Under the pieces are notes generated by a model, which was not told where the DNA came from, did not search any database, and saw only the letters and a list, made by a program, of their open reading frames with translations. Positions 3,649 to 25,182 of a stretch of DNA of 25,182 nt are shown here, piece after piece. This DNA comes from a virus. The DNA is taken from positions 1-25,182 of IMG/VR virus record IMGVR_UViG_3300028789_000081; one strand, 5' to 3'. How positions within the stretch are numbered: position 1 is the first letter of the stretch; every line of letters begins with the position of its first letter. The translations under genes were made by a program, and so were the position numbers.

Positions 3649-3659
3649 TCGCCCACGCG

Positions 3660-3681: not shown

Positions 3682-3717
3682 GACGGCACACCTCTCTTAC
3701 GTTTCGGAGCAGAACCC

Positions 3718-4086: not shown

Positions 4087-4088
4087 CC

Positions 4089-5480: not shown

Positions 5481-5539
5481 AACTCACGTTGACCAAACCG
5501 CACACGACCACCGGAGCGCACGACCATGCCCAATCCTGA
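5477..5539 (+). CDS. Twenty-residue peptide, possible remnant of a DUF7210-like gene
   Basis: An ATG overlapping the gpZ-like stop (ATGA, 5477-5480) opens a 20-codon frame reading MKLTLTKPHTTTGAHDHAQS and running 14 bases into the tail tube gene. Small proteins of about 60 residues beginning with a similar K-x-T-L-T-K-P-H-T pattern often occupy this position in prophages (DUF7210-like, from memory). This one seems to have lost everything after the first dozen residues. It may be a coupling peptide that carries ribosomes to the tube gene start, or it may be non-functional. Confidence 0.35.
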   Translation: MKLTLTKPHTTTGAHDHAQS

Positions 5540-6921: not shown

Positions 6922-6929
6922 CACCCACG

Positions 6930-10103: not shown

Positions 10104-10963
10104 TGGCCTACGAGATCGGCTTTGTCGACAACACCGGCAGCGAAGGCGTTGCCCACTGGCAGTTCCTGCTCAAGATCAAAGCCCTGGCTGAGGCCAACGG
10201 CTGGACCACGCTGCGCTATCTCAACCCGACGCCCTATACCACCGACACGGTGATCCGTGAGCTGATTCTGCAAGGTGTCGGTCTGTCCGGCACCGAGCAG
10301 ATCTTCATTGGCTTTCGCGCGTACCAGAGCGTCAGCGCTGATTACTACAACCTCAGCTGTGCCGCCTTCACCGGCTATGCCGCCGGCAATACCTTCATCA
10401 CCCAGCCGGGCTATGTCGAGAGCGGCGTGCCGGCGCACAACAATCGCATCGATTACTGGCTCGTTGTGAATGCGCAGCGCATCGCGTTCGGCCTGAAGGT
10501 CGGCACACCGGCCTACGAGCATGGCTACGCCGGCAAATTTCTGCCCTATGCCACGCCGGGTCAATACCCATATCCACTGGCGGTCGGCGGCATGCTCAAT
10601 GGTGTGCCAGCGACACGTTTCAGCGATACCGCGCACTCGATGCCTTACAAGGGCACCCGCGCCAACTTCAAAATCCGCTTTGTCGATGGCGCATGGAAAC
10701 AGATCGATAGCTGGCCTTGGAATAACGCTTACCTGGCTACCGCCACCCAGCTGCGCGACACCAACAACAACTACAAGCTCCTGCCGGTCGTGCTGAATGA
10801 CGCCGGCCCGAATATCTACGGCGAGCTGGATGGCGTTTACTCGATCAGCGGATTTAACAACGCCACGGAAAATACCCTGACCATCGACGGCATCCCCTAC
10901 GTCGTGCTGCAGGACGTCTCCCGCAACGGGTTTACCGACTACATTGCTTTGAGGCTCAACTGA
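10103..10963 (+). CDS. Minor tail protein of unknown function, first of a related pair
   Basis: This 286-residue protein follows the tape measure gene with a TGATG overlap, so it is surely part of the distal tail or baseplate module. I do not recognise a named domain. It has an N-terminal helix with LLKIKALAEANGW, followed by beta-rich, aromatic sequence (YWLVVNAQRIAFGLKVG) and a C-terminal part with LDGVYSISGFNNATE. The next gene has the same start (MAY), a comparable helix ending in ANGW and a similar YxxVVN...AFG strand, so the two look like diverged duplicates. Possible roles are distal tail or host-contact proteins. The function is not established by sequence. Confidence 0.65.
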   Translation: MAYEIGFVDNTGSEGVAHWQFLLKIKALAEANGWTTLRYLNPTPYTTDTVIRELILQGVGLSGTEQIFIGFRAYQSVSADYYNLSCAAFTGYAAGNTFITQPGYVESGVPAHNNRIDYWLVVNAQRIAFGLKVGTPAYEHGYAGKFLPYATPGQYPYPLAVGGMLNGVPATRFSDTAHSMPYKGTRANFKIRFVDGAWKQIDSWPWNNAYLATATQLRDTNNNYKLLPVVLNDAGPNIYGELDGVYSISGFNNATENTLTIDGIPYVVLQDVSRNGFTDYIALRLN

Positions 10964-11862
10964 TGGCCTACGTCGCCGGTACCGCCACCAGCGTGGCCGA
11001 CTTGCTCACCGCGTTGCAGAGCGCCTGCACGGCCAACGGTTGGGCGCTGAGCGGAACCATCCTCAGCAAAGGTGCCTGCTACATGCAGGTCAAGGTCGTG
11101 GGGGGCTACCTCACGGTGTTGGGTGGCACGGGCAATGCCGGCAGCGACACGCTGGCGTCTCCCGCGACCCCTGCTGCCGCGCTGGGCCAGTTATGGGCCG
11201 CAGACCCCTTCGCGTTTCCTCTGACCTATGAGATCAACGTGCACGCCGCACCCGATGAGGTGTACGTGGTCGTCAACTATGCGATTGATCGGCACCAGTG
11301 GTTGGCCTTTGGCTGTAGCCCCGCAGCAGGCTTGCCCGGCACCGGTAACTGGTTTGGAGCCAGCTTGTGCCGCGGCTCCCAGGTCACTGGGATCAGCATG
11401 AGCACCTCGCAGGGAGGTTGGAATAATTTTCAGGCGCCCGCGCTGTTCTGGCAGACGGGAGCGAGCAATTTCTGGACCGGCGTCCTGCATCACGGTCTTG
11501 ATGGTCTCACGTGGTCTGCCGGTGCAGGGGGCGGCGTGGCGAACGCTGCCGATGCACTGCCCGGTGCCACGTCACTGCTGAGCCGACAACCGAATAGCTG
11601 GAACGGCGAGGTGGTGTTGTTGCCCATCCAGCCATGCGTGGCGCGCCCCTCGTCAAAGGTCAGCATGGTGGGTGATTTGGGTCATGCCCGGTATCTGCGC
11701 AACGACAATCTGGCCGCTGGCGACATCATCACGCTGGGTCCCGATCGCTGGAAAGCTTATCCCTGGTATCGCAAAAACAGTGCGGCGCGGGATGGTGTGT
11801 ACGCAACCGCCATGGATCACAGCGGCACGCTCGGCTGGGCTATTCGTTACACGGGCCCATGA
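10963..11862 (+). CDS. Minor tail protein of unknown function, second of a related pair
   Basis: This 299-residue protein is coupled to its predecessor through TGATG. It opens with MAYVAGTATSVADLLTALQ and a helix ending in CTANGW, then a Gly-rich stretch and the strand EVYVVVNYAIDRHQWLAFG. That strand parallels the same region of the upstream protein. The middle carries aromatic-rich segments (WNNFQAPALFWQTGASNFW), and the C-terminus is YATAMDHSGTLGWAIRYTGP. This looks like a compact beta-structured tail or baseplate protein. I cannot name a family with confidence; position between tape measure and gpL-like genes is the best guide to role. Confidence 0.62.
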   Translation: MAYVAGTATSVADLLTALQSACTANGWALSGTILSKGACYMQVKVVGGYLTVLGGTGNAGSDTLASPATPAAALGQLWAADPFAFPLTYEINVHAAPDEVYVVVNYAIDRHQWLAFGCSPAAGLPGTGNWFGASLCRGSQVTGISMSTSQGGWNNFQAPALFWQTGASNFWTGVLHHGLDGLTWSAGAGGGVANAADALPGATSLLSRQPNSWNGEVVLLPIQPCVARPSSKVSMVGDLGHARYLRNDNLAAGDIITLGPDRWKAYPWYRKNSAARDGVYATAMDHSGTLGWAIRYTGP

Positions 11863-13562
11863 CCATGGCCTCACTTTCCGGCTCTCGTATCACCTCGCCC
11901 CTCGGCGGACTGCAGTCGCCAACGGTCAGCGCCGATCTGCGCACCTATGCCGTCGACTACTGGCCGCTGCATGCTGCCGTCGTCGGTCGCGCGCCGAATG
12001 GTGTGCCTACGTCGTCATGGCCCGTGCAGGCCAACGGGGTCGCGCTCAGCGGAACCCACGCGAACAGCTACCTTCTGGACTTCTACAACCGCGTGCAGAT
12101 CCACCCGGCCACGATCGCGCTGGGCAACCTGGTCAGTTCGCAGACGCGCACCGTGTCGGTGTGGAATGCGTGGCTCGATCGCTCCGCCACGGTGACCGCC
12201 GTGCAGAGCGACAGCGACAGCGCCATCGTGATCAGCGGGCAGGGCAACCCGCCACTGGTGATGCCGCCGCTGCAGGAGTTGACGTGGCAACTCAGCGTCG
12301 GCGTGGCAGGTACGGCCACGCTCGACACCACCGTGCAGTGGGTGTTTGCCGGCGACCCCTCGCTCGGCGTGCGCATCACGGGCCAGCGTGTTACCGCGTG
12401 GACGTTCGCGCCCCATTGGGACAGCGGCGTCACCGAGCGGCTGGAGTGGTTGACGCTGGTGGAGCGCGGGACCAATGGCAACGAAACCAGCACGCCGCTG
12501 CGCGAAACGCCACGCCGTAGCTGGGAGTTTGTGCCGGTGGTGGAGGGCGTCAACCGTCAGCGCATGGAGGCGATGCTGTACGACGCCAGCGCACGCACGT
12601 GGGCGGTGCCACTGTGGGCCGAGATCCATGCGTTGCCGACGCCTTTGGCCCTTGGCGCGCTGAGCATTCCGATGGCCACCGCCGGGCTGGACTTCCACAA
12701 GGGCGGTCTAGCTATCCTGATGACGGACGCGCACACGTACGAGACGGTGGAAGTCGACACCGTGACGGACAGCGCGATCAACCTGGTGCGCGCCACACTC
12801 AATGCATGGGATGCCGGCACGAAGCTGTACCCGGCACGCACCGCGCGGCTGGATGAATACCCGACGCTCAACCGCTTCACCACGCGGCTGGTCGACACGA
12901 CGGTGCGCTTCGTCAGCATGGACGCCAACGACTACATCGCGACCATGCCGGCGGCGCGCTACCTCGGCACGCCGGTGCTGGAGGATCGCCCCGAGTGGAG
13001 CGACAACCCAACCATGCAATACGGCCGTGATGTGGAACTGATCGACGGCAACACCGGCGGCGCGCTGGTCGACGATATCAGCGGCAAGCCGTGGCCGATT
13101 CAATCGCACCGCTGGCAGGTCTACGGCCGCGCAGCGCATGACAGCCTGCGCCAGCTGCTGTACGCGCTCGCTGGCAAGGTCGGTCGCGTGTGGCTACCCA
13201 CCTGGCAGGATGACCTGTATCCGGCCGCCGATGCCGCCGGCAACACCATGGACGTGACGAACGGCGGCTATACCGTCTATTTGCACGGGCAGAACGGCCG
13301 GCGCGACATTCGCGTGCAGTTGGTCGATGGCACCGTGTTCTATCGGCGCATTACGGCCTCAGCCGAGATCGACACCGATACCGAGCGTCTGCAGCTCGAC
13401 AGTGCGTGGCCGTCGACCATCGCCAAGGCCAACGTGGTGAGCATCAGCTTTATGGCGTTGTGCCGGCTCGACACCGATGCGGTGGAGATCCACCACTGGA
13501 CCGATTCCGTGGGCGCCGCGGCGTGCGCCGTGACGTTTGCGCAGTTGACCGGCAATGGCTGA
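11859..13562 (+). CDS. Large minor tail/distal tail protein, function unassigned
   Basis: This 567-residue protein has an ATGA overlap with the previous gene; ATG 11865 is a close alternative start. The sequence is mostly beta-structured. The N-terminal half has several short strand repeats (RTVSVWNAWLDRSATVTAV, VGVAGTATLDTTVQW) suggesting immunoglobulin-like modules. The C-terminal half includes HRWQVYGRAAHDSLRQLLYA, WLPTWQDDLYPA and a final domain ending FAQLTGNG. It lies where lambda has gpM, just before the gpL-like gene, and overlaps that gene by 8 bases. A distal-tail or hub-scaffold role is plausible. I see no enzyme motif and no signal peptide. Confidence 0.6.
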   Translation: MTMASLSGSRITSPLGGLQSPTVSADLRTYAVDYWPLHAAVVGRAPNGVPTSSWPVQANGVALSGTHANSYLLDFYNRVQIHPATIALGNLVSSQTRTVSVWNAWLDRSATVTAVQSDSDSAIVISGQGNPPLVMPPLQELTWQLSVGVAGTATLDTTVQWVFAGDPSLGVRITGQRVTAWTFAPHWDSGVTERLEWLTLVERGTNGNETSTPLRETPRRSWEFVPVVEGVNRQRMEAMLYDASARTWAVPLWAEIHALPTPLALGALSIPMATAGLDFHKGGLAILMTDAHTYETVEVDTVTDSAINLVRATLNAWDAGTKLYPARTARLDEYPTLNRFTTRLVDTTVRFVSMDANDYIATMPAARYLGTPVLEDRPEWSDNPTMQYGRDVELIDGNTGGALVDDISGKPWPIQSHRWQVYGRAAHDSLRQLLYALAGKVGRVWLPTWQDDLYPAADAAGNTMDVTNGGYTVYLHGQNGRRDIRVQLVDGTVFYRRITASAEIDTDTERLQLDSAWPSTIAKANVVSISFMALCRLDTDAVEIHHWTDSVGAAACAVTFAQLTGNG

Positions 13563-14334
13563 GGTCGAGATTTACACCTTTGCCTGCGGGCTGCAGATGT
13601 GGCGCTACACCGACGCCCTGCTGCCGGTCACGTTTCTTGGCAACACTTACGCGGCAGCGGTGATCAAGCGCGGTGCGATCGAGCAAAGCACGGATCTGGA
13701 AAAGGCCACGCTCACCATCACCGTGCCGGTGACGTTGGGGCTGATGGATCTCTTCCGCCCGGCGCCACCGTTGCGCCGCATCTATGTGACTGTGCAGCGC
13801 CTCACGCGCGGCGATACCACGGCGCGCACGTTGTGGAGCGGCACGGTCGGCTCGCCGGATTCTGGCCAGCACACCGCGGTGCTTACTTGCATGAGCCGGG
13901 CGGCGGCACAGCAAAACACTGGACTGCGGCGTAAGTGGACCAAAACTTGCGGCTTCGCGTTGTACAGCCCAGCGCCCATGTGCGCGGTCGATCGCACCGC
14001 GTTTCGCGTGAATGGCACGCTGAGCACTGCCCGCGGCAACGTGATTAAGTCGGGCGCGTTCGCAAACAAGCCCGACGGCTATTTCGCGGGCGGCTTCATC
14101 GAGTGGACGCGCAACGGCGACGAAGCCTGGCGTTTTGTTACGGCGCATGTGGGCGACACGCTGACTCTACTGACTGCCGCGCCCTTGCTGGTAGGCGATG
14201 TGCTGCAGGCGTACCCGGGCTGCGATCACTCCACCGGCGGCAATGGCTGCGGCCGGTTCAATAACCTGAGCAACTACGGCGGCCAACCTTACATCCCATC
14301 TAAAAACCCGTTCGGCGCGAACAACATTTACTGA
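13555..14334 (+). CDS. Baseplate/tail tip protein, gpL-like (DUF2163 / phage BR0599 family)
   Basis: This 259-residue protein belongs to the family of phage proteins with a DUF2163-type N-terminus and a BR0599-type C-terminus. The first part has AVIKRGAIEQSTDLEKATLT and VPVTLGLMDLFRP. The end has the signature CDHSTGGNGCGRFNNLSNYG followed by GQPYIPSKNPF. Cysteines 132, 143, 223 and 232 are grouped in two pairs; in lambda gpL, C-terminal cysteines bind an iron-sulphur cluster. It should form part of the tail tip that assembles with the gpJ-like hub protein. The start overlaps the upstream gene. Family identification is firm; metal binding is inferred. Confidence 0.85.
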   Translation: MAEVEIYTFACGLQMWRYTDALLPVTFLGNTYAAAVIKRGAIEQSTDLEKATLTITVPVTLGLMDLFRPAPPLRRIYVTVQRLTRGDTTARTLWSGTVGSPDSGQHTAVLTCMSRAAAQQNTGLRRKWTKTCGFALYSPAPMCAVDRTAFRVNGTLSTARGNVIKSGAFANKPDGYFAGGFIEWTRNGDEAWRFVTAHVGDTLTLLTAAPLLVGDVLQAYPGCDHSTGGNGCGRFNNLSNYGGQPYIPSKNPFGANNIY

Positions 14335-14341
14335 GGTCCAC

Positions 14342-14578
14342 ATGCCGTTTCTTATTTATATGATCATCATGCTGGTGGTGGCGGTGGCGGTCTATGCCAG
14401 CATGCCCAAGCCGCCCAGCACCCAGCCGCAGTCGCTGACGGACGGCGGCGTGCCGCTGGCTTCGGACGGTCGCGACATGTGCGTGGTGTTCGGCGAGGTC
14501 TGGATCGACGACAACAACGTCTGCAATTACGGCGGCCTCTACACCGTGGCGATCAAGTCCAGCGGTGGTGGCAAGTGA
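14342..14578 (+). CDS. Small conserved tail-module protein with N-terminal membrane-like segment
   Basis: This is a 78-residue protein with GAGG upstream of ATG 14342. Residues 4-20 are strongly hydrophobic (LIYMIIMLVVAVAVYAS), followed by a Pro-rich linker (MPKPPSTQPQS). A short conserved domain then contains VVFGEVWIDDNNVCNYGGLY and TVAIKSSGGGK. Small proteins with this layout recur immediately upstream of gpJ-like genes in prophages and are usually left unnamed. The part after the linker resembles the opening of tail tip proteins. The gene ends in GTGA, sharing bases with the next start. The hydrophobic segment might act in tail-tip or ejection steps, but I see no direct evidence of that. 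Confidence 0.65.
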   Translation: MPFLIYMIIMLVVAVAVYASMPKPPSTQPQSLTDGGVPLASDGRDMCVVFGEVWIDDNNVCNYGGLYTVAIKSSGGGK

Positions 14579-14811
14579 GCGCTCCCATCGTGGTGATCAT
14601 GCAACACGTGCGCGCGGCCTCGATGCCGGGCGTCGGCGTGCTATGCGCATCCGGCGTGCGCGCGTGGTTCGCGCAGCACGATCTGGACTATCGCGCGTTC
14701 CTGCACGATGGCCTGCCGCTGGAGACGCTGGAGGCCACCGGCGATGCCTTTGCCTTGCGCGCCTGTGCGATCGCACGTGCCGAAGTGAGCGAGGTGAGCG
14801 ATGGGCGGTAA
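14575..14811 (+). CDS. Small conserved tail-module protein (GTG start)
   Basis: This is a 78-residue protein starting at GTG 14575, which overlaps the previous stop as GTGA. An in-frame opening further upstream exists but would overlap the preceding gene by almost 100 bases, so the GTG is preferred. The sequence contains VLCASGVRAWFAQHDLDYRA and a C-terminal helix with LEATGDAFALRACAIARAE. This pattern (a Cys-containing turn, R-x-W-F, an aspartate-rich loop, then ATGDA) is common in small proteins that sit between gpL-like and gpJ-like genes of prophages. No function is known to me. Its last 11 bases overlap the tail tip gene. Confidence 0.65.
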   Translation: MSAPIVVIMQHVRAASMPGVGVLCASGVRAWFAQHDLDYRAFLHDGLPLETLEATGDAFALRACAIARAEVSEVSDGR

Positions 14812-16957
14812 GAGCAGCGACGCCACCATCGGCTACTGGTACGGCGGCACGTTCCATATGGGGCTGAGCCATGGCCCGCTGGACGAGATTCTGGAGATCC
14901 GCGGCGACGATAAGACCATGTTTCCGGCTTCGGGACAGCCCACCATGACCGCCAGTGGTGCGGTCACCATCAACGCACGTAGCCTGTACGGCGGCGAAAA
15001 GCAGGAGGGTGGTGTGCAGGGCACGCTCACCGTGCTGATGGGTGAGGCGACACAGGTGCCCAGCGCGGCGCTAGCCACCATCGAGCCCATCGTGCGGCCT
15101 GCTTACCGCAACATCTGCACCGTGGCATTTACCGGCCTGATCGGCGCGATGAGCCCCTACGTCAAAGCGTGGCGCTTTCGCGTGCGTCGCCATCTGAAGG
15201 GCTGGAATACGCCGGTTTGGCGTCCGGAGCTGTGCAAGGTCGGCCGTGGCATGAACCCGGCGCACATCATCTATCAAGTACTCACCGACCCGGTGTGGAG
15301 CGCGTCGGAAGATGCCGGGCAGGGCCTCGACGATGCCAGCTTTCTGACAGCCGCGCAGGCGCTCTACAACGAAGGCATGGGACTCTGCCTCAAGTGGTCG
15401 TCGGCGGATGCGGTGGGCGACTTCATCAACATCGTGATCAACCACATCGGCGCATTGCGCACCATCGACCCGACCACGAACCGCGCCGGCATCCGGTTGC
15501 TGCGCGCCGATTACGACGTGGCCACGTTGGCGGCCAATCCCAACACCGTGCTCGATGAAAACGACATACTCGAGATGACCAGCTTTCAGGTGCCGGTACT
15601 CGATCAGTCCGTCAATCAGGTCACGGTGACATATCGCGACGTCGATACCAACGAAGATGCGGCGGTGGTGTACCAGAACCTGGCCAACATTCAGGCGCAG
15701 GGCAAGGTGGTGGACCAGTCCACCGCGTACCCAGGCGCGTGGAGTGCGGCGCTCGCCAGCCGCCTGGCGGCACGGGACTGCCACACGCTTAGCGCGTTGC
15801 TGGCCAAGGGCGAGTGCAAGGTCAAGAGCACGCGCTGGAAAACGAAGGTGGGCGACGTGCTGCTGCTGAGCTGGGCGCGCGAGAAAGTGGTGCAGATGCC
15901 GATCCGCGTGCTCAAGGTCAACTATGGCGACAGCACCGCGCGCAGCCTCACGATCAGCTGGGCACAGGATGAGTTTGCGCTGCCGTCCACCTCGTACCTC
16001 ACGCCCGGCGGCTCGCTGTGGGCAGCGCCAGACCGCACGCCGCAGGCCATCACCACGTCGCAGGCGGTGGAGATGACGTACCGCGACCTAGCGCGCACGA
16101 TGGACCCAGCCAACCTGCAGATGCTCACGTCCGACGCCGGCTATCTCACCGCGCTGGCCGTGCGCCCGCCGGGCGTCAATTACAACTATCACCTGTTCAC
16201 GCGGCTGGGCACGGCGGCATACGCCGATCGCGGCGGCGGCGACTTCATCACCACCGGTACGCTGGGGGTAGCGATCGGGCCCACCGACACCACGCTCGCG
16301 CTATCGGCGTTCGATGACCTCTCGGCGGTGCAGGTGGGCAGCGCGGCGCTGCTGGATGCCGAGGTCGTGCGTATCGACGGTATCAATACCGTGACAGGCA
16401 GTGTCACGTTGGGCCGCGGTTGTGTCGATACCGTGCCAGCGGCGCACGCGCTCGGTGCGCGGTTGTGGTTCTATCAGGGCCATGTCGGCTCCGACAGCAC
16501 GCAATACGTGGTCGGCGAAAGCGTCAACGCCAAGCTGTTGACCGTTTCCGGCGCAGGTATGCTCGATCCATCCGCGGCGGCCACGCTCAGCCTGCCGATG
16601 AAACAGCGCCAGGCGCGCCCCTACCCACCGGGCAATCTCAGGGTGGCGGGCAATCGGTATCCGGCGACGGTCGTCGGCAGCCTGGCACTGGCATGGTCGC
16701 ATCGCTCGCGCGTGCTGCAAGCGGATCAGATGGTGGACACGCGGCAAGTCGATATCGGTCCGGAATCCGGTACCACCTACACGGTACGCGTGTATCTCAA
16801 CAACGCGCTCAACAGCACGACCACCGGTGTTACTGCCAATACCCTCACGCCCGTGGTCAGTGGTGATGGCCCGGTACGCGTGGAAATCGACGCTGTGCGC
16901 GCCGGGCTTACCGGCTGGCAGACGCTCTCCGCATCCTTCGCTTACTCACGCAGCTAG
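14801..16957 (+). CDS. Tail tip/central fibre protein, gpJ-like host-specificity protein
   Basis: This 718-residue protein is probably the central hub of the tail tip, contacting the host surface. The N-terminus (MGGKSSDATIGYWYGGTFHM) leads into a hub region with VKAWRFRVRRHLKGWNTPVW and MNPAHIIYQVLTDPVW. A central phage-tail_3-type domain follows (LDENDILEMTSFQVPVLDQS, VNQVTVTYRDVDTN). The second half has a beta-strand module (TTLALSAFDDLSAVQVGSAA) and ends in a fibronectin-III-like domain (residues about 600-718). It is shorter than lambda gpJ (1132 residues) and lacks a long C-terminal receptor-binding extension. No separate tail fibre gene follows. Its ATG overlaps the end of the small upstream gene. 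Confidence 0.85.
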   Translation: MGGKSSDATIGYWYGGTFHMGLSHGPLDEILEIRGDDKTMFPASGQPTMTASGAVTINARSLYGGEKQEGGVQGTLTVLMGEATQVPSAALATIEPIVRPAYRNICTVAFTGLIGAMSPYVKAWRFRVRRHLKGWNTPVWRPELCKVGRGMNPAHIIYQVLTDPVWSASEDAGQGLDDASFLTAAQALYNEGMGLCLKWSSADAVGDFINIVINHIGALRTIDPTTNRAGIRLLRADYDVATLAANPNTVLDENDILEMTSFQVPVLDQSVNQVTVTYRDVDTNEDAAVVYQNLANIQAQGKVVDQSTAYPGAWSAALASRLAARDCHTLSALLAKGECKVKSTRWKTKVGDVLLLSWAREKVVQMPIRVLKVNYGDSTARSLTISWAQDEFALPSTSYLTPGGSLWAAPDRTPQAITTSQAVEMTYRDLARTMDPANLQMLTSDAGYLTALAVRPPGVNYNYHLFTRLGTAAYADRGGGDFITTGTLGVAIGPTDTTLALSAFDDLSAVQVGSAALLDAEVVRIDGINTVTGSVTLGRGCVDTVPAAHALGARLWFYQGHVGSDSTQYVVGESVNAKLLTVSGAGMLDPSAAATLSLPMKQRQARPYPPGNLRVAGNRYPATVVGSLALAWSHRSRVLQADQMVDTRQVDIGPESGTTYTVRVYLNNALNSTTTGVTANTLTPVVSGDGPVRVEIDAVRAGLTGWQTLSASFAYSRS

Positions 16958-16960
16958 ACG

Positions 16961-16989
16961 TGTGCCACCTGTCGGGTAAAGGTGGCACA
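16961..16989 (+). terminator. Perfect 10-bp hairpin between tail and lysis modules
   Basis: TGTGCCACCT (16961-16970) and AGGTGGCACA (16980-16989) are exact inverse complements separated by a 9-base loop. The hairpin begins three bases after the tail tip stop codon and no T-run follows. It could be a weak terminator, an RNA processing site or a translational barrier that lowers lysis gene expression relative to tail genes. Confidence 0.5.
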
Positions 16990-17011
16990 GCGAGCCCGGC
17001 ATGCTGATCGC

Positions 17012-17575
17012 ATGCCAAACCAACCGCCAAACTCTGCCACCGGCTCTGCGATCAGTCTTGCATGGGGCGCGCGCGTCTCCACGGGCTTTGCTAAAACGCT
17101 GCTCGGCATCTGCCGTGACTTTGGTTGGGGTGCTGAGCATCCGAGCTGGCTGATGAGCTGTATAGCGTTTGAAAGCGGCGAAACGTTCAGCGCATCAGTG
17201 CGCAACGCGGCCGGATCTGGCGCGGCGGGCCTCATCCAATTTATGCCAGCGACGGCCGCTGGCCTTGGTACCACCATCGAGAATCTGCAGCTGTTGTCGG
17301 CCGAGTCGCAACTGTCCTACGTGCGGCAGTATTTCAAGCCGTACGCGCGGCGCATCGGCTCGCTGTCGGACATGTACATGGCGATCTTGTTGCCCAAATA
17401 CGTGGGCCAGCCCGGCAGCTCGGTACTGTTCTCTGACGGCGCAGGCTACCGGCAAAACGCCGGCCTCGATGCGAGCCACGACGGCAAGATCACGAAAGAC
17501 GAAGCCACTGCCAAGGTGCTCGCCAAACTGCAGCGCGGGCTGACGCCCGGCTTGACCGCAACCTATGTCCTATGA
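17012..17575 (+). CDS. Phage endolysin, lytic-transglycosylase-like with EF-hand-type loop
   Basis: This 187-residue protein should degrade peptidoglycan at the end of the lytic cycle. Glu54 in CIAFESGETFSASVRNAAG is the likely catalytic acid, followed by the SLT-type signature GAAGLIQFMPATA. Later segments such as LSYVRQYFKPYARR and DMYMAILLPKYVG fit transglycosylase-fold phage lysins. Near the end, D153-A-S-H-D157-G-K-I-T-K-D-E164 has the spacing of an EF-hand calcium loop. ATG 17012 is preferred because the upstream GTG at 16982 lies within the right arm of a hairpin. There is no signal peptide, so export depends on the holin encoded just downstream. Confidence 0.85.
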   Translation: MPNQPPNSATGSAISLAWGARVSTGFAKTLLGICRDFGWGAEHPSWLMSCIAFESGETFSASVRNAAGSGAAGLIQFMPATAAGLGTTIENLQLLSAESQLSYVRQYFKPYARRIGSLSDMYMAILLPKYVGQPGSSVLFSDGAGYRQNAGLDASHDGKITKDEATAKVLAKLQRGLTPGLTATYVL

Positions 17576-17581
17576 CTCGCC

Positions 17582-17983
17582 ATGCGCGTGATAGGCACTG
17601 ACATGGATCAGCCGCCGCTTAACTTCACCTGGTGGCAGTTGGTGCTGTACCCCTTGTTTGCGTGCGTAGGCGGTGCGCTTGGCCATGTGCTGCGCACGCT
17701 CGACGCTGGCGGCCCCATTTCGCTGTGGCGCACGTTGCTGGAGTCGATGGCCGCGGGCTTCGTCGGCATTCTGGTGATGCTGATCTGCCAGCAGCTGCAC
17801 CTGTCCCCGCAGTGGACCGGCGTGTGCGTCGGGGTGTGCGGCTGGCTGGGAGCCACCGTGAGCATTCGCATGCTGGAGCGCCTGGTTCGGGCCCGACTCG
17901 GCGTGCCGGTGGACGAAGGCGATCACACCGAAAGCACCTTCATTGGTGCCACACCGCCGCCGGCCGGCGACAAGGGGAATTGA
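17582..17983 (+). CDS. Phage holin, three-helix (LydA/holin superfamily III type)
   Basis: This 133-residue membrane protein has three predicted helices: WWQLVLYPLFACVGGALGHV, then SMAAGFVGILVMLICQQL, then WTGVCVGVCGWLGATVSIRM. A soluble C-terminal tail ends in Pro- and Gly-rich sequence. The architecture and phrases such as LRTLDAGGPISLWRTLLE fit the LydA-like holin family. It would open the inner membrane at the programmed time and release the endolysin encoded six bases upstream. ATG 17603 (MDQPPLN), with AGG seven bases before it, is a second possible start. Dual starts are sometimes used to make holin and antiholin forms, which I mention only as a possibility. Confidence 0.85.
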   Translation: MRVIGTDMDQPPLNFTWWQLVLYPLFACVGGALGHVLRTLDAGGPISLWRTLLESMAAGFVGILVMLICQQLHLSPQWTGVCVGVCGWLGATVSIRMLERLVRARLGVPVDEGDHTESTFIGATPPPAGDKGN

Positions 17984-18375
17984 TGAAAAGCATCTATCGC
18001 TATGCCGGTGTCGCGCTCGCGGCCATCGGGCTGGTGACGTTGGGTGCGATCGCCGTGCGCCACTACGGTAATGGACGATTCGAAGACGGCCGCAACGCGG
18101 TGCTGGCTGACGATGCGCGCGCGGCTGTCCAACGGCAAACCGACCGCGATGCACTCGACCGGTACAGCGCGCTGGCCACCGGCACGCTCACCACCGCGCT
18201 CGGCACCCAGCTGCCCGCCATCCAAGGCCAGACCCATGACACACTCGAAACGATCCGTACGGTCTATCGTGACCGCCCTGCCGCTGACGTGGCTTGCGCT
18301 CGCCCTGACGGCGTGCAAACCGCTCTCAACGCGGCCGTCGAAAGAGCCAACCAAGCCGCCCACGGTCAACTGTGA
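17983..18375 (+). CDS. Inner membrane spanin subunit (Rz-like)
   Basis: This 130-residue protein starts at ATG 17983, sharing a base with the holin stop (TGATG). One N-terminal membrane segment (YAGVALAAIGLVTLGAIAV) is followed by the typical i-spanin opening RHYGNGRFEDGRNAV. A periplasmic helical region rich in Ala, Thr, Gln and Asp follows (TDRDALDRYSALATGTLTTA). It should pair with the lipoprotein encoded in the overlapping frame and fuse the inner and outer membranes in the last step of lysis. Rz1 begins within it in the +1 frame, the classical overlapping spanin arrangement. The length is close to lambda Rz (153). Confidence 0.82.
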   Translation: MKSIYRYAGVALAAIGLVTLGAIAVRHYGNGRFEDGRNAVLADDARAAVQRQTDRDALDRYSALATGTLTTALGTQLPAIQGQTHDTLETIRTVYRDRPAADVACARPDGVQTALNAAVERANQAAHGQL

Positions 18376-18553
18376 TCGGACACCGCCGCCAGCGGTCGTG
18401 CCGTTTGTGCCGGAGCTGAAGGGCGCCGCCGATATGCCGGCTAACGATGCATGGAAGGCGCAGATGATCGGCCTGTATCAGGCCGAGGTCACCATTCGCC
18501 GCGAGGAGCATGTCTGCATGGACACGCTGCGCGGGAAGGGCGTCATTCAATAG
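18236..18553 (+). CDS. Outer membrane spanin lipoprotein (Rz1-like), overlapping Rz out of frame
   Basis: The +1 frame inside the Rz gene opens at ATG 18236 (105 residues) or GTG 18269. It shows a short basic N-terminus, a hydrophobic core and a lipobox (WLALALTAC), with lipidated Cys27 counted from the ATG. The mature protein is Pro-rich and continues well beyond the Rz stop (VNCDRTPPPAVVPFVPELKG, then NDAWKAQMIGLYQAEVTIRR). It would be anchored in the outer membrane and bridge to Rz. At about 79 mature residues it is longer than lambda Rz1 (40), because only its first half is embedded in Rz. Start choice is uncertain. Confidence 0.8.
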   Translation: MTHSKRSVRSIVTALPLTWLALALTACKPLSTRPSKEPTKPPTVNCDRTPPPAVVPFVPELKGAADMPANDAWKAQMIGLYQAEVTIRREEHVCMDTLRGKGVIQ

Positions 18554-18858
18554 GAAAAGAGAAGGGCGACCGGCCATGGTGCGTCAACACCACGGTAAGT
18601 CACCAACCCGCAAGCACGCTGCGAGTCAGCCGAGGCCGACCGGTCCGCGCGAAGCCCTGCGGGCCTACGTGGCAAGAGGATCACTCGCAAGCCGACGGTG
18701 GCCGGTGGGCTGCTCTGACTCAGGCCGTGCAGCGTGTCCGCCCAGACGTGACCCGCGGTCTGTTCCTTCGGCCGGTCAGGTGAATTCGTGCACTTTGTGT
18801 TGCTCGTGATTGGATGACGGCACATCCTGATTACGGGCACCTGTAGTTTCTGACAGGG
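18554..18858 (+). other. Intergenic stretch between lysis module and RHS gene, no convincing gene
   Basis: I see no gene that I can support here. A 77-codon frame from ATG 18576 has purine-rich sequence upstream but encodes Arg-, Pro- and Ser-heavy sequence (MVRQHHGKSPTRKHAASQPR) of the kind produced by non-coding GC-rich DNA. It could be a decayed phage gene. The boundary between phage late genes and accessory cargo probably falls in this stretch. From about 18781 the base composition becomes less GC-rich, which suits a promoter region for the next gene. Confidence 0.5.
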
Positions 18859-18966
18859 CGCATCTTTCGGATGCGTAAAGTTTGCTATAAAGAGCGCTGC
18901 TCGCAGGCCCACGACAACCGTGGGTGGCATCGAGCGCACTTTGCGCGCTGCGCATTTAGGGGATAC
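18859..18966 (+). promoter_or_regulatory. Structured leader and ribosome binding site of the RHS gene
   Basis: Two clear hairpins lie upstream of the RHS start: CGCATC/GATGCG (18859-18864 with 18870-18875) and CCCACG/CGTGGG (18908-18913 with 18919-18924). A weaker AGCGC/GCGCT pair follows (18933-18937 with 18945-18949). TATAAA at 18886-18891 could be a -10 element, but no good -35 is at the right distance. AGGGGA ends just before ATG 18967 and is the best ribosome binding site in the region. The arrangement suggests a gene with its own transcription and a folded 5' leader. Confidence 0.35.
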
Positions 18967-21900
18967 ATGGACATCGCACGGATAGCGCTGCGTGCGCTTC
19001 GGGATCGCTTGGCAATGGGGCAACGGGGCAAGCAAACATCACGTTGGCGCACTGGGCATCAGCTGCTCGCCGTTGTGGTATTCGCGCTGGCGCACCTGCC
19101 ATCGGCGTCGGCTCAAGTGCAGATCTTCGGCGGCACTTATTACTTTCATTCCATGCCACAAGCTTTGGCAGCGTGCATGGCGGACGTACCGACGCGTCAG
19201 TACCTTTACAAAGCTTGCTATACCTATTCAGGAATCAACGAATACTGGGATAACTGGACGTCGTCCTTGCACCCTCTGGAGGCTGAGGGGACGAATGATT
19301 ACCTCGACGTTGGAGTCACTCCCATCGCGCCGGGTACTCCCGGCAAGAATGCAGGCCCCGCCTGTCATTGTGCGACCAACCCTATTAATAAGTCCGGGGG
19401 AGACCCCATTAATCTGGGCACGGGTAATGAGTATCGTGACGAAGAGGACGCCGCCCTCGGCGCGCTGAGCTTCCATCGCTATTACAACAGCCAGCCTGAA
19501 GTTATCTCGGCAAACATCGGCGTTAACTGGCGCGACAGCTTTGACCGCAGCGTGCTCGCAGTAAGCGTCAATCCAACCCAGGCCACGGTCGTGCGGCCCG
19601 ATGGCACGCAAGTCCTCTTCAATCTTAAGGGCGCCGCATGGGTCTCCGACTTGGATGTTTCCGATACGCTGTCGTCGACATCCGATGGGTCAGGTGATAT
19701 CACCGGCTGGACATACTTCGAGGCTGCGACCCGTCATAACGAAAGCTTCGATGCCTATGGGCGAGTCACATCCATCGTTGACGAAAACCAGCGCACAACT
19801 TTGCTCACTTACGCTCCAGCGTCGGTGCTGCCGGGAAGCGGCAGGCTGAGCAGCGTGGTCGACCCAGAGGGTCGCCAGCTCTCGTTCACTTACAACAGTA
19901 GTGGAAACATTGCGACGGTGACGTTGCCCGATAACGGCGTGTTGACTTACGGCTATGACAGTTCCGGCAATCTTCAGCAGGTGACGTACCCCGATCAAAG
20001 CACGCGGGTGTACCACTACAACGAGAGCGGGTTGACCTCTGGCGCTTCGTTCCCCAACAACCTCACGGGAGTCACGGACGAGACCGGAACGCGCTACGCC
20101 AGTATCGGCTATGACAGCGTCGGTCACGCCAACTCCTCCGTGCTCGCAGGCAACGTCGACCTCACGCAGGTCACGTACAACAGCAATGGCACGACATCGG
20201 TCACGTATCCGCTGGGTGCACAGACCACGCTGAATTTTGTGGTGACCAGTGGCACCGTCCACGGCAGCACCGTCAGTGCCCCCTGTGGTCCGATCTGCGA
20301 TCAACCGTACGCCGCGGCTACGTTCGATAACAATGGCCATCCGCTCACAGCGACCGATTTCAAAGGCAATGTGACTCGGACAACCTACGACGCGAATGGA
20401 TTGCTCGATCAGGAAGTCGACGCCCTCGGAGCGACCAATCAACGCGTAACCAATACCACTTGGAACACCGCGCTGCGAGTGCCGCTCCAAACCACCGTCG
20501 TCAACGCGAGTAACGCCACGGTCGCCGAGACTTCTTGGGTCTACAACACGATTGGCCAGCCGCTAGCCCGTTGCGAGATCGATCCGGTTTTGGCGAGCAG
20601 CTACACCTGTGCAGTCACCGGTGTAGTCCCAGCGGGTGTGCGTCGCTGGACCTATAGCTATTGCGCGGCGGTGGACGGCGTGCAGTGTCCGTTGGTCGGA
20701 TTACTGCTCAGCGTCACCGGCCCCCGTACCGATCTCGCCCAGACCATCACTTACAGCTATTACATGACCAGCAGCGCCACGAGCTGCGGCACACCGGGTG
20801 CGGCGTGTTACCAAACGGGTGACCTTTATCAGATCACCGATGCGCTGGGCCATGTGACCACTGTCGCTTCGTACGACGGGGCGGGCCGCATCACGCGGTC
20901 CGTCGACGCTAACGGCATCAACACTGACTTGGCCTACACGCCGCGTGGTTGGCTCGCCTCGCGCACCGTCAACGGTGCCACCACTACCCTCACTTATTGG
21001 CCATACGGCGCAGTCGAAACGATCACCAAACCCAACGGGGTGACCACCACCTTCAAATACGATACCGCCCATCGTCTGACCGACATCCTGGATGCGCAGA
21101 GCAACGACCTTCACTACACGCTGGACGCGGCTGGCAACAAAACCAGTGAGCAGATTTTCAACATCTCTGGCATGCCGCTGCAAAGCCAGTCACGTCAGTT
21201 CAACACGCTGGGCCAGCTCACAGCGGTGATCGACGGGCTCAACCAGACCGTCTTCAATGCCAGCGCCAGCGGTAACTACGATGCTAATGGCAATCTGGTC
21301 AACAGTACCGACGCCCTCGGTCACCAGCGCCAACAGGGCTTCGATGCACTGAACCGCTTGACGAGCACCATCGCCAATTACAACGGTACCGACACGGCCA
21401 CGAAAAACACCACCACAACGACCAGCCTGGATGCGCTAAACCGCATGACGAGCGTTACCGATCCGGCGGCTCTCATAACCACCAACACCTACGATGGTCT
21501 GAGCAACCGCACGCGGCTGCAAAGCCCGGATACCGGCACCAGCACCGACACTTTCGATGCGGCCGGCAATCGCCTCACGCATACCGATGCAAAGGGCGTC
21601 GTCAGCACCTCGACCTATGACGCGGATGATCGCCTGATCAGCACCAGCTACGTCGATACCACGCAAAACGTCAGCTATACCTACGACGAAGCCAACACAG
21701 TGACAGGCTGCAGTGCTTCCAGTCCAATCGATCGGCTCACGAGGGTGGTGGAGGGCGCCGTCACTACGGTGTTCTGCTACGACGGCCGCGGTAACGTCAT
21801 CCAGAAGATGCAGGAGACGTCGGGTAATAATGACATCACCCATTACAGCTACACGGCAGCCAATCAACTAAGCAGCGAAAGTACGCCTGACCAGACCGCG

Positions 21901-23442
21901 ATCAGCTACACGTACGATAGCAACGGACGTATCAGCGGTGTGCAAGTGACACCCAGCGGCGCCACCACGGCATCGCCTACTGTGGTCAGCGCCATCAGCT
22001 ATCTGCCGTTCGGGCCGATCAGCAGCTACACGCTAGGTAACGGTCAGACCATCATTCGCGGTTATAACGCCAACTACCAGCTTACCGACCTGACCAGTCC
22101 GGCCCTGGTGCTGCATTTTGCGCGGGATGCGATGGGCAATATCGTCGCCTTGGGCAACGCACCAGGTGCCAACCCAGCTACGGAGACGTATAGCTACGAT
22201 CCGCTGTATCGGCTCACTGGCATCACCGACGCCGGCACCGCGCTGGAAACCTACACCTACAATCAGACCGGCGATCGTCTAAGTAAGACGGCGCCCGGCC
22301 TGGCTACCGGTGCCTATCTCTACACCAGCGGCACACACAAAATCGCCAGCATCGGCAACGCAGCACGCATCAACGATGCTGACGGCAACACGACAGCTAG
22401 TGTGATGGGAGGGAATGCGTACGGGTTCGGGTACAACGGACGCAACCGCTTGACGGTGGCGCAGCTCAATGGCCAGACCGTGGGCGCGTACACGTACAAC
22501 GCCGTGGGCGAGCGCATCAACAAGGTCGCTACCTATCCGCAGGCCGTGACCGAGCGTTACGCCTACAATGAGGCCGGTCAATTGATCGGCGAATACGGCA
22601 CGACCAACAGGGATTACATCTGGCTGGGCGACTTGCCGGTGGCGGTTGTGGACAACACCATCAATGGCAGCGTGACGACCAGCACGGTCAACTATGTGAC
22701 TGCCGATCAGCTAAATACGCCGAGGGCGGTAACCAATAGTACGGGCACCGTGATCTGGCAGCTGCCGTATCAAGAGAACCCCTTCGGTGAACAGCAACCG
22801 ACGTCAGCGACGGGCTATGTATTGAATTTAAGGTTCAGTGGGCAGTATTACGATGCCGAATCTGGTTTGGCGAACTTTGGCTTCCGAAGCTACGAGGCGG
22901 CTACGGGTCGTTCTCCCCAGAGTGATCCGATGGGGCTTTTCGGCGGGCAGATTGATACTTATGCGTATGTCGACTCCAGTCCATTAAACTTCGTTGACCC
23001 CTATGGCTTGGCTTTGCAACGCGTCACGCTCCCGGGACTTGGCTCAACATACCTGGATGACTCCTTCTCGCCCCACGTCGATCAGTTCATAGCTAATGCT
23101 GCTGCAAATGGGGTGAATCTGAATTTTAATAGCGCTTATCGAACTCCCGAGCATCAAGCGGCCTTACACAACGATCCTCATGCCATCACCCCAGCAGATC
23201 AGAGCCTACATTCGTGTGGCTTTGCGGTCGATGTGAATTATTCAACGTTATCTACGGCGCAGCAAAAAATAATTCGAGACGCAGCCAGCTCGGCGGGTTT
23301 AAGTTGGGGAGGGAGCTTCAGTACTCCCGACCCACCGCATTTTTATATGAATCCACCCGCTGACAGATCTACCGCAATTCAAAATGCAACCGATGAATAC
23401 CAGAAGTTAAATGCCCCAACGACCCAGGGTGGAACACCATGA
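18967..23442 (+). CDS. Exported RHS-repeat polymorphic toxin with C-terminal M15 peptidoglycan peptidase domain
   Basis: This is a 1491-residue protein from ATG 18967 (AGGGGA upstream); ATG 19015 is also possible. Residues 1-49 look like a long signal peptide (basic region, LLAVVVFALAHL, then SASA). A DUF6531-like domain begins near 145 (GGDPINLGTGNEYRDEEDA), followed by dense YD/RHS repeats to about 1290 (for example SYTYDSNGRISGVQV). The RHS core closes at 1294-1348 with YYDAESGLANFGFRSYE, DPMGLFGG at 1320 and DPYGL at 1344. The last 143 residues match zinc peptidase family M15: SAYRTPEHQ at 1389, HSCGFAVD with His1415 and Asp1422, and WGGSFSTPDPPHFY with His1458. The toxin domain should cut peptidoglycan stem peptides or cross-bridges. 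No PAAR or VgrG domain is seen, so the delivery route is unclear. The toxin tip is AT-richer than the repeats. Confidence 0.88.
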   Translation: MDIARIALRALRDRLAMGQRGKQTSRWRTGHQLLAVVVFALAHLPSASAQVQIFGGTYYFHSMPQALAACMADVPTRQYLYKACYTYSGINEYWDNWTSSLHPLEAEGTNDYLDVGVTPIAPGTPGKNAGPACHCATNPINKSGGDPINLGTGNEYRDEEDAALGALSFHRYYNSQPEVISANIGVNWRDSFDRSVLAVSVNPTQATVVRPDGTQVLFNLKGAAWVSDLDVSDTLSSTSDGSGDITGWTYFEAATRHNESFDAYGRVTSIVDENQRTTLLTYAPASVLPGSGRLSSVVDPEGRQLSFTYNSSGNIATVTLPDNGVLTYGYDSSGNLQQVTYPDQSTRVYHYNESGLTSGASFPNNLTGVTDETGTRYASIGYDSVGHANSSVLAGNVDLTQVTYNSNGTTSVTYPLGAQTTLNFVVTSGTVHGSTVSAPCGPICDQPYAAATFDNNGHPLTATDFKGNVTRTTYDANGLLDQEVDALGATNQRVTNTTWNTALRVPLQTTVVNASNATVAETSWVYNTIGQPLARCEIDPVLASSYTCAVTGVVPAGVRRWTYSYCAAVDGVQCPLVGLLLSVTGPRTDLAQTITYSYYMTSSATSCGTPGAACYQTGDLYQITDALGHVTTVASYDGAGRITRSVDANGINTDLAYTPRGWLASRTVNGATTTLTYWPYGAVETITKPNGVTTTFKYDTAHRLTDILDAQSNDLHYTLDAAGNKTSEQIFNISGMPLQSQSRQFNTLGQLTAVIDGLNQTVFNASASGNYDANGNLVNSTDALGHQRQQGFDALNRLTSTIANYNGTDTATKNTTTTTSLDALNRMTSVTDPAALITTNTYDGLSNRTRLQSPDTGTSTDTFDAAGNRLTHTDAKGVVSTSTYDADDRLISTSYVDTTQNVSYTYDEANTVTGCSASSPIDRLTRVVEGAVTTVFCYDGRGNVIQKMQETSGNNDITHYSYTAANQLSSESTPDQTAISYTYDSNGRISGVQVTPSGATTASPTVVSAISYLPFGPISSYTLGNGQTIIRGYNANYQLTDLTSPALVLHFARDAMGNIVALGNAPGANPATETYSYDPLYRLTGITDAGTALETYTYNQTGDRLSKTAPGLATGAYLYTSGTHKIASIGNAARINDADGNTTASVMGGNAYGFGYNGRNRLTVAQLNGQTVGAYTYNAVGERINKVATYPQAVTERYAYNEAGQLIGEYGTTNRDYIWLGDLPVAVVDNTINGSVTTSTVNYVTADQLNTPRAVTNSTGTVIWQLPYQENPFGEQQPTSATGYVLNLRFSGQYYDAESGLANFGFRSYEAATGRSPQSDPMGLFGGQIDTYAYVDSSPLNFVDPYGLALQRVTLPGLGSTYLDDSFSPHVDQFIANAAANGVNLNFNSAYRTPEHQAALHNDPHAITPADQSLHSCGFAVDVNYSTLSTAQQKIIRDAASSAGLSWGGSFSTPDPPHFYMNPPADRSTAIQNATDEYQKLNAPTTQGGTP

Positions 23443-23840
23443 AGCGTATCTTTGTTAAATGTATAATTTGTATCTCAATGCTCCTAGTCGTTGGCTCTGG
23501 CATTTGTCAGAATTCTCCTAATTCAAAGCTGAAGATCACTGGAATTTATTCAAATATGCAGTACAACGCGGAGTCTGGTGACGTTCTTGGGCAGGAAATA
23601 TTCATTGTTTTCTCAAGAGATGGGTATTTCGCCATTCTGCAAAATAGCGAAGGTGAGCCGGCCGTGCCAGTGGTCGTTCCATTGAAGGTTCTAGGCTCAA
23701 ATATTTATTTTCACGTGCCTTCGAACCTTGATTCCAGAGGTAACTTTCAAGGTGTCATTACCGGTGCGGAACTGAGGGGGGCGTTTAGCGGGAACGACCA
23801 AAAAGTTGAATTAAAAAGGAAGAATAGCTACTGGCAATAG
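23439..23840 (+). CDS. Putative periplasmic immunity protein for the RHS-M15 toxin
   Basis: This is a 133-residue protein whose ATG overlaps the toxin stop (ATGA), the usual link between a polymorphic toxin and its immunity gene. Residues 1-23 form a signal peptide-like segment (MKRIFVKCIICISMLLVVGS) with no canonical lipobox. The mature part is beta-rich (LKITGIYSNMQYNAESGDVL, EIFIVFSRDGYFAILQ, GVITGAELRGAFSG). I recognise no named family. Periplasmic location is what an inhibitor of a peptidoglycan peptidase would need. Its DNA is markedly AT-rich: line 23461-23520 has 24 G/C in 60 bases, against 41 in 60 for 9181-9240 in the tape measure gene. This indicates separate acquisition. Function is inferred from context only. 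Confidence 0.65.
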   Translation: MKRIFVKCIICISMLLVVGSGICQNSPNSKLKITGIYSNMQYNAESGDVLGQEIFIVFSRDGYFAILQNSEGEPAVPVVVPLKVLGSNIYFHVPSNLDSRGNFQGVITGAELRGAFSGNDQKVELKRKNSYWQ

Positions 23841-24022
23841 CTCTCGCGAAGTTTTGCCTTAATGGATATGACGTCCGCGAAGCAATTTGAGCGCCCGCTA
23901 AATGGCTCAAGGCATTCGCAGAGGAAGTTCTCGTTCCAGGTCGTTTCGGCCGCAAGCCATATCTCAGACTAGCTGTGCTGACATCATTAGATGAGCAAAT
24001 CAACGCTAGGTTGGCGGCGTAG
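23828..24022 (+). pseudogene. Decayed coding remnant with an in-frame TGA
   Basis: One frame reads ALAKFCLNGYDVREAI, a TGA at 23888-23890, then APAKWLKAFAEEVLVPGRFG and RKPYLRLAVLTSLDEQINAR, ending at TAG 24020. The part after the TGA is amphipathic and protein-like rather than random, but it has no start codon or ribosome binding site. It looks like the 3' end of a gene that lost its beginning, perhaps an earlier immunity or cassette gene. I do not recognise the family. Confidence 0.35.
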
Positions 24023-24041
24023 GTTAACTTCAGCGTTAGAC
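24002..24041 (+). repeat. Candidate attC-like hairpin (integron cassette site) before the TIR gene
   Basis: AACGCT (24002-24007) pairs with AGCGTT (24032-24037). The inner AGGTTGGC can pair with GTTAACTT using G-T wobbles, leaving one unpaired C and a 7-base loop. The right end GTTAGAC (24035-24041) fits the integron core consensus GTTRRRY. The stretch TTAACTTCAGCGTTAGAC resembles the right half of aadA-type attC sites as I remember them. The left core is poor and the site is shorter than normal, so this may be a degenerate site or chance. Confidence 0.25.
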
Positions 24042-24059
24042 TTCTTTGACAGGAGACGT

Positions 24060-24887
24060 ATGGGACACGAGATTCAAAAGCCAAAGCTCTTCATCAGCCA
24101 CGCCACCAGCGATGGAGAGTTTGCGCATGCTGTCAAAGCCGAGATCGAGAAGGTGTTCGCAAATGGCGTAAGCGTTTTTTGCACGAGCTCGCCCGGTTCT
24201 ATTCCAATTGGTAATGATTGGCTATCAGACATTGAAGGAAAGCTCAATTCGGCTCAGGCAGTCATCGCCATTGTTACCCCAGTCTCTATTGAGCGCCCTT
24301 GGCTTTGGTTCGAACTAGGCGCCACCTGGTCGAGCGGCCGATCTGGCGACTGTCACATCTATCCGCTTTGCGTGGCTGAAATTGACCTCAGCTCACTGCC
24401 TCCTCCGCTAAATCGCCTGCAAGCATTGTCACTGGGTCGTGCATCAGACTTAAAGATGTTGTTCGAGGCCCTAATAGCTCAGTTTGGCTTTGGCAAGATC
24501 TCGTCTTTCAAAGCGTCCAACATTACGTCCCGCATTCCCAAGTACGAGAAGGTACGGGTGAAAGAGGTAGATCTAAACGAGCGTCGGTTGTACTCGGGGA
24601 AGTACTCTGGATACAGCAATGAAGAACTCATGGAGATCATCGACACCCACTTGTTCTTCCCGGACTACGAAACCGAACAGCGATATTCCTCCATTCGCGG
24701 CAGAGAGGAGGTTGTTCAACGCGGTAAGCTTCTTCACTTTGGGGAAATCGACCGTGAGCTTGAGCTGCCCCCAGGGACGGCGAGACAACTCGTCGTTGCG
24801 GTAGCGGAGCGTTACGACCTCAAGCCAACGCTTCTCACGGATAACGTTGTGCGCTTCGAATATGGCGAGGACGAAGCCGAAGCCTAG
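24060..24887 (+). CDS. TIR-domain protein, candidate anti-phage defence NADase
   Basis: This 275-residue protein starts at ATG 24060, with AGGAG four bases upstream. Residues 8-100 form a TIR domain: strand A with KLFISHATSDGEFA, then GVSVFCTSSPGSIPIGNDWL, AQAVIAIVTPVSIERPWLW and the motif WFELGATW with candidate catalytic Glu85. Bacterial TIR domains commonly cleave NAD+ or make cyclic ADP-ribose variants in anti-phage systems. The C-terminal half (about 160-275) has no family I recognise. It includes SNEELMEIIDTHLFFPDYET, a basic helix-turn region (RGREEVVQRGKLLHFGEID) and a final helical segment, and may sense infection or bind a partner. No second defence gene is visible, so it may act alone or with a gene beyond the window. 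Composition differs from the phage genes, suggesting independent acquisition. Confidence 0.8.
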   Translation: MGHEIQKPKLFISHATSDGEFAHAVKAEIEKVFANGVSVFCTSSPGSIPIGNDWLSDIEGKLNSAQAVIAIVTPVSIERPWLWFELGATWSSGRSGDCHIYPLCVAEIDLSSLPPPLNRLQALSLGRASDLKMLFEALIAQFGFGKISSFKASNITSRIPKYEKVRVKEVDLNERRLYSGKYSGYSNEELMEIIDTHLFFPDYETEQRYSSIRGREEVVQRGKLLHFGEIDRELELPPGTARQLVVAVAERYDLKPTLLTDNVVRFEYGEDEAEA

Positions 24888-25182
24888 CAATCACTCGAGC
24901 GTCGAATGTCCGTATATGGACTCCTGACCCACCGCGCGGCAGCGCTAACCGCTAAAAGGGCCTGAGTCTTCGCCGCTAAGGTTCTGGTCCTAAGAGGGGA
25001 CCCGACTTAGAGAAGTTCACGGACTCCCCAAATTTCCCCCACGATAGCGATCAAGCCCATATATTATGCGGTTTGCGGGTGCCCCTCTTGGGCATCTTTA
25101 TAGTGAAAGCGGGCGATTGGGCTCAGCGGCCCGTCCCTGGGCGATGAGGTGCCCCCTTCGATCCTTACGAGGAACGTCTCCC
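24888..25182. other. Terminal non-coding stretch with weak hairpins
   Basis: No gene can be supported in these 295 bases. GGTCC/GGACC (24986-24990 with 24998-25002) and TGCCC/GGGCA (25080-25084 with 25090-25094, followed by TCTTTAT) are short hairpins. The second is a weak candidate terminator for the TIR gene. The heptamer GGGCGAT occurs twice (25111 and 25139). I see no tRNA, integrase or clear attachment site. Confidence 0.5.

Follow-up and report, generated by a model that had tools for sequence, protein, structure and literature searches.

A candidate toxin–immunity pair with an M15-family peptidase tip on an RHS protein encoded next to phage lysis genes

The DNA analysed here, an IMG/VR virus record of 25,182 bases referred to below as the window, very probably contains a polymorphic-toxin locus in which an exported RHS protein bears an M15 warhead and is accompanied by an exported neutralizing partner, in one mobile cassette. 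In the mechanism we envisage, the RHS protein would be exported by its Sec signal, with its last 143 residues serving as the warhead. Self-cleavage after the DPYGL motif, expected by analogy with Rhs1 of P. laumondii, may free this warhead, a predicted metal-dependent M15 peptidase most similar to the M15C L-alanyl-D-glutamate endopeptidases of phage endolysins, which would attack the target from within its periplasm by cleaving peptidoglycan stem peptides. The partner, a putatively exported and mostly beta-strand protein, would protect the producer and its kin by neutralizing the tip in their periplasm, and the tip and the immunity gene would move as a single cassette among RHS proteins, CdiA-type proteins and phage cassettes. 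The two together are apparently a new toxin–immunity pair of a known class, real, mobile and hitherto undescribed. The window has the following features.

1–16957, + strand: phage head and tail genes (portal, protease/major head protein, tape measure, tail tip)
16982–18553, + strand: phage lysis region (SLT, holin, Rz-like and Rz1-like genes)
16982–17575, + strand: SLT gene (transglycosylase-type), preceding the holin gene
17582–17983, + strand: holin gene (phrog_785, E 1e-28)
17983–18375, + strand: Rz-like gene (weak match to phrog_8821, E 0.0012)
18236–18553, + strand: Rz1-like gene, a lipoprotein-type frame overlapping the Rz-like gene
18967–23442, + strand: RHS polymorphic toxin gene, 1491 amino acids (frame open from 18871), with RHS_repeat, DUF6531 and Rhs_assc_core matches
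18967–19113, + strand: predicted Sec signal peptide of the RHS protein, cleavage after ...LPSASA
19399–19620, + strand: DUF6531 N-terminal RHS domain (44.7 bits, cut-off 24.1)
22777–23010, + strand: RHS-associated core (TIGR03696), DPMGLFGG ... DPYGL, predicted self-cleavage region
23011–23442, + strand: M15-family peptidase tip, 143 amino acids, assigned by Pfam and predicted fold (the last three bases are the stop codon)
23209–23340, + strand: metal/catalytic site, His1415 (23209–23211), Asp1422 (23230–23232), Asp1455 (23329–23331) and His1458 (23338–23340)
23439–23840, + strand: predicted periplasmic immunity gene, 133 amino acids, with homologues beside tips and a signal-like N-terminus
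23991–24887, + strand: TIR-domain gene, the downstream neighbour of the RHS pair, likely start at 24060 (TIR_2, 42.7 bits, cut-off 28)

The RHS carrier and its M15-family tip

The long reading frame has the hallmarks of an RHS polymorphic toxin, i.e. YD/RHS repeats (Pfam RHS_repeat, 180.5 bits against a cut-off of 22) and a core (TIGR03696, 63 bits against 32.5) followed by a variable C-terminal toxin domain. The core match extends to base 23010 (residue 1380 in the long frame), exactly where the tip starts, and the boundary motifs DPMGLFGG and DPYGL, both named in an earlier note on this DNA, lie at residues 1320 and 1344. We favour the start at position 18967 that the note had taken, because two 60%-identical RHS proteins from the viral contigs L013 and L014, which bear other tips, begin with MDVAR, and the protein studied here with MDIAR. 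From this start the protein carries a Sec-like N-terminal segment, LLAVVVFALAHLPSASA, with a mean hydropathy of 2.73 over LLAVVVFALAHL and RWRTGH just before it; after the hydrophobic stretch come small residues and ASA-Q, a pattern resembling Sec signals. Neither PAAR nor VgrG was matched in this protein, nor was a MuF domain (Pfam, PHROG). The earlier note had counted an exported RHS protein lacking PAAR among the features of an unusual competition module; the signal-like segment and the lack of PAAR and VgrG indeed stand, but the platform is a common one in the bacterial family that includes genome G305. The N-terminal part of the window RHS protein was matched in 66 of the 198 genomes of that family; the RHS tips differ among the loci checked there, and a hydrophobic, signal-like stretch lies close to the N-terminus in all or nearly all of the proteins. 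DUF6531 is present and PAAR absent in all ten RHS N-terminal regions scanned (that of the window and nine others).

As the earlier note had proposed from its metal-site pattern, the tip belongs to the M15 family. A profile search matched it to Pfam Peptidase_M15_4 (34.5 bits, cut-off 25) and VanY (26.3 bits, cut-off 25), and further to the PHROG endolysin family 2649 (E 3.6e-11); given that both Pfam cut-offs are passed and considering the PHROG value, the match is far beyond chance. His1415, Asp1422 and His1458 are found at the positions previously assigned to them, Asp1455 of the DPPH motif completes an M15C-type site, and all four residues are invariant across eight intact tips (alignment A9). 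A profile built from four tips retrieved Ply500, the L-alanyl-D-glutamate peptidase of a Listeria phage endolysin (2vo9), with E 5.5e-10. The same structure is the best PDB match (E 2.4e-5) of an AlphaFold model of the tip made from four sequences (pLDDT 86), followed by LysB4, VanY-type and Hedgehog structures, so the tip is predicted to have the fold of the LAS superfamily. The DxxH (rather than ExxH) motif, together with Ply500 as the best match, suggests an M15C endopeptidase more than a D,D-carboxypeptidase, so that cleavage between L-Ala and D-Glu is the presumed reaction. The description of the tip as a lysin-like warhead thus holds as regards the M15 domain and the endolysin-like fold, but M15 domains as such have already been reported as interbacterial toxins. 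A tblastn search of the tip against phages returned no match. Weak M15 matches in three further genomes (G852, G952 and G980; 50–62 bits) score well below this group of tips and have no partner, the G980 protein being free-standing, and were set aside.

The partner gene and its pairing with the tip

The small gene downstream overlaps the RHS stop codon by four bases (ATGA), and its product has a hydrophobic, signal-like N-terminal segment, CIICISMLLVVG, so that both of these features noted earlier are confirmed. The protein gave no match in Pfam, NCBIfam, PHROG or PADLOC and none by tblastn in the phage and plasmid collections; six members of the family compared with Pfam and NCBIfam yielded nothing convincing, and neither the protein nor its alignment gave a credible hit among the sequences of solved structures. 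Its structural model is of modest confidence (pLDDT 68), and a fold search with it returned no match below E 0.04. Lipid-binding beta-barrel proteins and the lysozyme inhibitor PliC (E 0.25, TM 0.43–0.55) resemble the model loosely, and no weight is given to this.

What ties the two proteins together is their shared occurrence: a homologous tip and a homologous partner are adjacent in nine loci, the window included, and the carriers are unrelated. In an RHS protein of Rahnella laticis the tip is 68% and the partner 43% identical, the partners sharing the C-terminus RKNSYWQ. Variovorax sp. SRS16 encodes on a plasmid a CdiA-type protein (filamentous haemagglutinin) with a 40%-identical C-terminal M15 domain (BLASTP 2e-27), and the next gene encodes an exported partner homologue of 127 residues (23% identity, BLASTP E 1e-10). 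In the phage contig L017, a free-standing M15 protein is overlapped by its partner by four bases. Genome searches with the partner only led to G305, G1065, G1034, G977 and G967, with a tip immediately upstream in each, which is the co-occurrence the earlier note had called for. In the reverse direction, strong tips (more than 100 bits) had an adjacent partner in two of two cases among 398 genomes and in four of four among 227 genomes; this direction is less independent, because the larger set includes the Rahnella genome that served as its centre and the profile used for the smaller set contained some of these tips. Tip and partner distances are correlated across eight pairs (Mantel r 0.70, p 0.0007, all 40,320 permutations). 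The GC content decreases stepwise from carrier through tip to partner in three hosts (0.587/0.507/0.428 in the window, 0.523/0.431/0.321 in Rahnella and 0.607/0.489/0.414 in Variovorax), as expected for a transferred cassette. Pairs on unrelated carriers, the partner-only searches and the correlated divergence together sustain the toxin–immunity relation that had been suggested for tip and partner, with toxicity residing presumably in the former and inhibition in the latter.

Two of these loci deserve a comment of their own. Contig L017 (IMGVR_UViG_3300047160_023205) has two tandem toxin–immunity cassettes at 779–3157, just 5' of the phage major capsid gene. Both toxins, one weakly similar to Ntox44 and the other being the M15 protein, start with a common tag, MPGxFxxPFGDxETTGFFGGYRxP, which might serve in sorting to the virion or for export; neither toxin matched an RHS or a MuF domain. 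In genome G305, the RHS-M15 tip is frameshifted in a run of seven G (L027:7625–7631) before the DPPH motif with the second histidine, with the downstream immunity gene intact; decay, phase variation and a sequencing error are all possible.

Partner homologues also exist apart from any tip, most of them in RHS or integron contexts or distant in sequence. One (G319) belongs to a series of small genes adjoining an RHS gene. Another (G919, L048:5920–6438) coincides exactly with a single cassette of an integron-like array, the repeats on its two sides, at 5920–5993 and 6365–6438, belonging to an attC-like family of 14 copies, and a third (G1010, L052:4014–4456) is followed by the same attC-like repeat. 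Immunity genes without toxins usually look like this, and such orphans may protect their hosts. A solitary homologue in G655 is unexplained and counts against the pairing. Weak immunity-like matches in G146, G274, G847, G861, G905, G1003, G1019 and G1126 (22–43 bits) have no toxin neighbour and were dismissed as distant relatives or noise; three of them (G1019, G1003 and G1126; L055–L057) are exported, distantly immunity-like proteins with no toxin nearby, which could be free-standing inhibitors of wall enzymes. Conversely, no relative of the partner family is adjacent to a 33%-identical M15 tip on an RHS protein from Bacteroidota (L020), or to an M15 frame in G889 (L091) that is truncated where its contig stops. 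The L020 locus (Rikenellaceae) has several exported small genes near the M15 tip (3479–4207), which may include a different inhibitor.

Instead of inhibiting the tip, the small protein might assist it as a chaperone or co-toxin. Pairing by itself is, admittedly, no proof of inhibition, but the homologues that persist alone, in the row of small genes associated with RHS and in the single integron cassette, behave like immunity genes, and we consider a chaperone or co-toxin hardly probable. It is likewise highly improbable that the M15 domain serves the phage itself, for lysis or as a tail-associated wall enzyme, and became fused to RHS by chance. The nearest folds are indeed those of phage endolysins and the gene follows the holin and spanin genes; however, an SLT gene is already present before the holin, the same domain and partner occur on the Rahnella RHS protein and the Variovorax CdiA-type protein, and a lysis enzyme would not need an exported inhibitor. 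A third alternative concerns delivery: the RHS protein might be an effector of the type VI secretion system (T6SS) acting via a separate adaptor, its N-terminal segment being a membrane helix instead of a signal peptide. The T6SS is used by most of the studied RHS toxins of Gram-negative bacteria, but the window protein and nine other RHS proteins of this platform have neither PAAR nor VgrG, and the hydrophobic segment with the small residues and ASA-Q after it is Sec-like, so we regard this option as unlikely. Export via the Sec pathway is hence our preferred reading of the first step, which would be followed by a passage across the outer membranes.

Phage cargo or host flank

Head, tail and lysis proteins are encoded in the left two thirds of the window. 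The tail protein at 14801–16957 is 38–44% identical to proteins of Stenotrophomonas phages (e.g. phiSHP3) and Pseudomonas phage B3; no close relatives of the window were found in the phage collection at the DNA level. The RHS gene does lie directly downstream of the spanin pair, as the earlier note had it, 'directly' standing here for a gap of 413 bases. No recognizable promoter was found in this gap; no sigma-70 promoters were found, their count being below that in shuffled sequence, and no RNA families were detected in the region. The junction between the lysis genes and the RHS gene recurs in two further contigs, one identical over 14598–25176 and the other 99.99% identical over 15000–22879, and a search for sequence past the right end of the window recovered only the identical contig. 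The assignment of the RHS gene to prophage late-region cargo is borne out by phage genes on the left side only; between the TIR gene and the end of the record no phage gene is found. The TIR protein itself shows a weak similarity to TIR proteins of phage defence (SpbK, Thoeris, retron-TIR).

It is therefore possible, if doubtful, that the RHS gene, the small gene and the TIR gene are not cargo at all but host chromosome beside the right end of a prophage, in which case the toxin–immunity reading would stand and that of a prophage competition module would fall. This would agree with the lack of any phage gene to the right of RHS in the window, with a GC content that is lower in the RHS core (0.587) than in the phage part (0.646), and with the commonness of the RHS platform in bacterial genomes; moreover, the ends of the two contigs that reach this far lie no more than 6 bases apart, perhaps through trimming or a repeated boundary. 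Against it, in three of three contigs the lysis genes are directly followed by the RHS gene in the same orientation, and two related RHS loci, on the further viral contigs L013 and L014, have phage genes to either side. That RHS genes do occur as phage cargo is shown by these two contigs, whose 60%-identical, Sec-signal RHS genes, with other tips and other small genes, sit between phage genes. Each of the two contigs has three consecutive RHS genes (L013:5653–12772, L014:5635–12859), all with signal-like N-termini of their own, and then a small gene; the set is located between a repressor-like gene and P2-like tail genes and represents tandem, split RHS cargo in prophages.

Returning to the reading of the locus as phage cargo, we tentatively suggest, with more doubt than confidence, that the phage arms its lysogen with an exported RHS protein, a domesticated endolysin-type warhead, a periplasmic shield and a TIR gene, the cassette being traded between RHS proteins, CdiA proteins, capsid-adjacent phage cassettes and, for the shield alone, integrons. 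If true, phages and integrons would carry both cell-wall weapons and protection against them.

Relation to known systems

The partner adds a predicted periplasmic immunity family, missing from Pfam, NCBIfam, PHROGs and PADLOC, whose counterpart is a predicted peptidoglycan-peptidase warhead. Work on endolysin-type and VanY-type enzymes would profit from a natural protein that inhibits an M15 peptidase, and the pair is small (143 and 133 residues) and directly testable. The locus also offers a case in which to study toxin delivery by Sec-exported RHS proteins that lack PAAR, which are common in one bacterial family. We found no description of the partner family or of the tip–partner pair in the open-licence papers searched.

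The window protein shares its repeats, core, DPxGL junction, variable tip and overlapping immunity gene with known RHS polymorphic toxins (Zhang et al. 2012, PMC3482391; P. laumondii Rhs1, PMC8636562), and differs from them in its Sec-like signal and the lack of PAAR. L,D-peptidase and NlpC/P60 tips are described in the former survey, in whose accessible parts M15 or VanY tips were not found, and self-cleavage is known for P. laumondii Rhs1 (PMC8636562). T6SS PAAR-RHS effectors have an N-terminal PAAR domain, which the window protein lacks. With M15C endopeptidases such as Ply500 (PDB 2vo9) the tip shares the predicted fold and the His-x6-Asp and DxxH site; unlike Ply500, it has no wall-binding domain and would serve as a warhead with a dedicated partner gene. 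The M15 catalytic class, employed against rival bacteria, has been described in other carriers, namely the LysM-M15 effectors of the Neisseria T6SS (PMC10210955), WHIX effectors with M15 (PMC12135965), lipocone-associated VanY-like toxins (PMC12419801) and albusin B (PMC6240691), all reported as M15 or VanY-like antibacterial effectors; the partner family of the window is unmentioned in the accessible parts of these reports.

Other systems resemble the locus in their organization. VgrG2b (PMC6899460) is likewise a periplasmic metallopeptidase toxin with a periplasmic inhibitor, although, by its description, it is fused to a T6SS spike. The MuF toxins of temperate phages (PMC5576092) likewise form phage-encoded toxin–immunity pairs, but they are proteins of the packaging module, whereas the window RHS protein has no MuF domain. 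Finally, contact-dependent inhibition by CdiA/CdiI is linked to the present pair by the CdiA-type relative from Variovorax with its homologous tip and partner, the window protein differing in being an RHS protein and not a filamentous haemagglutinin.
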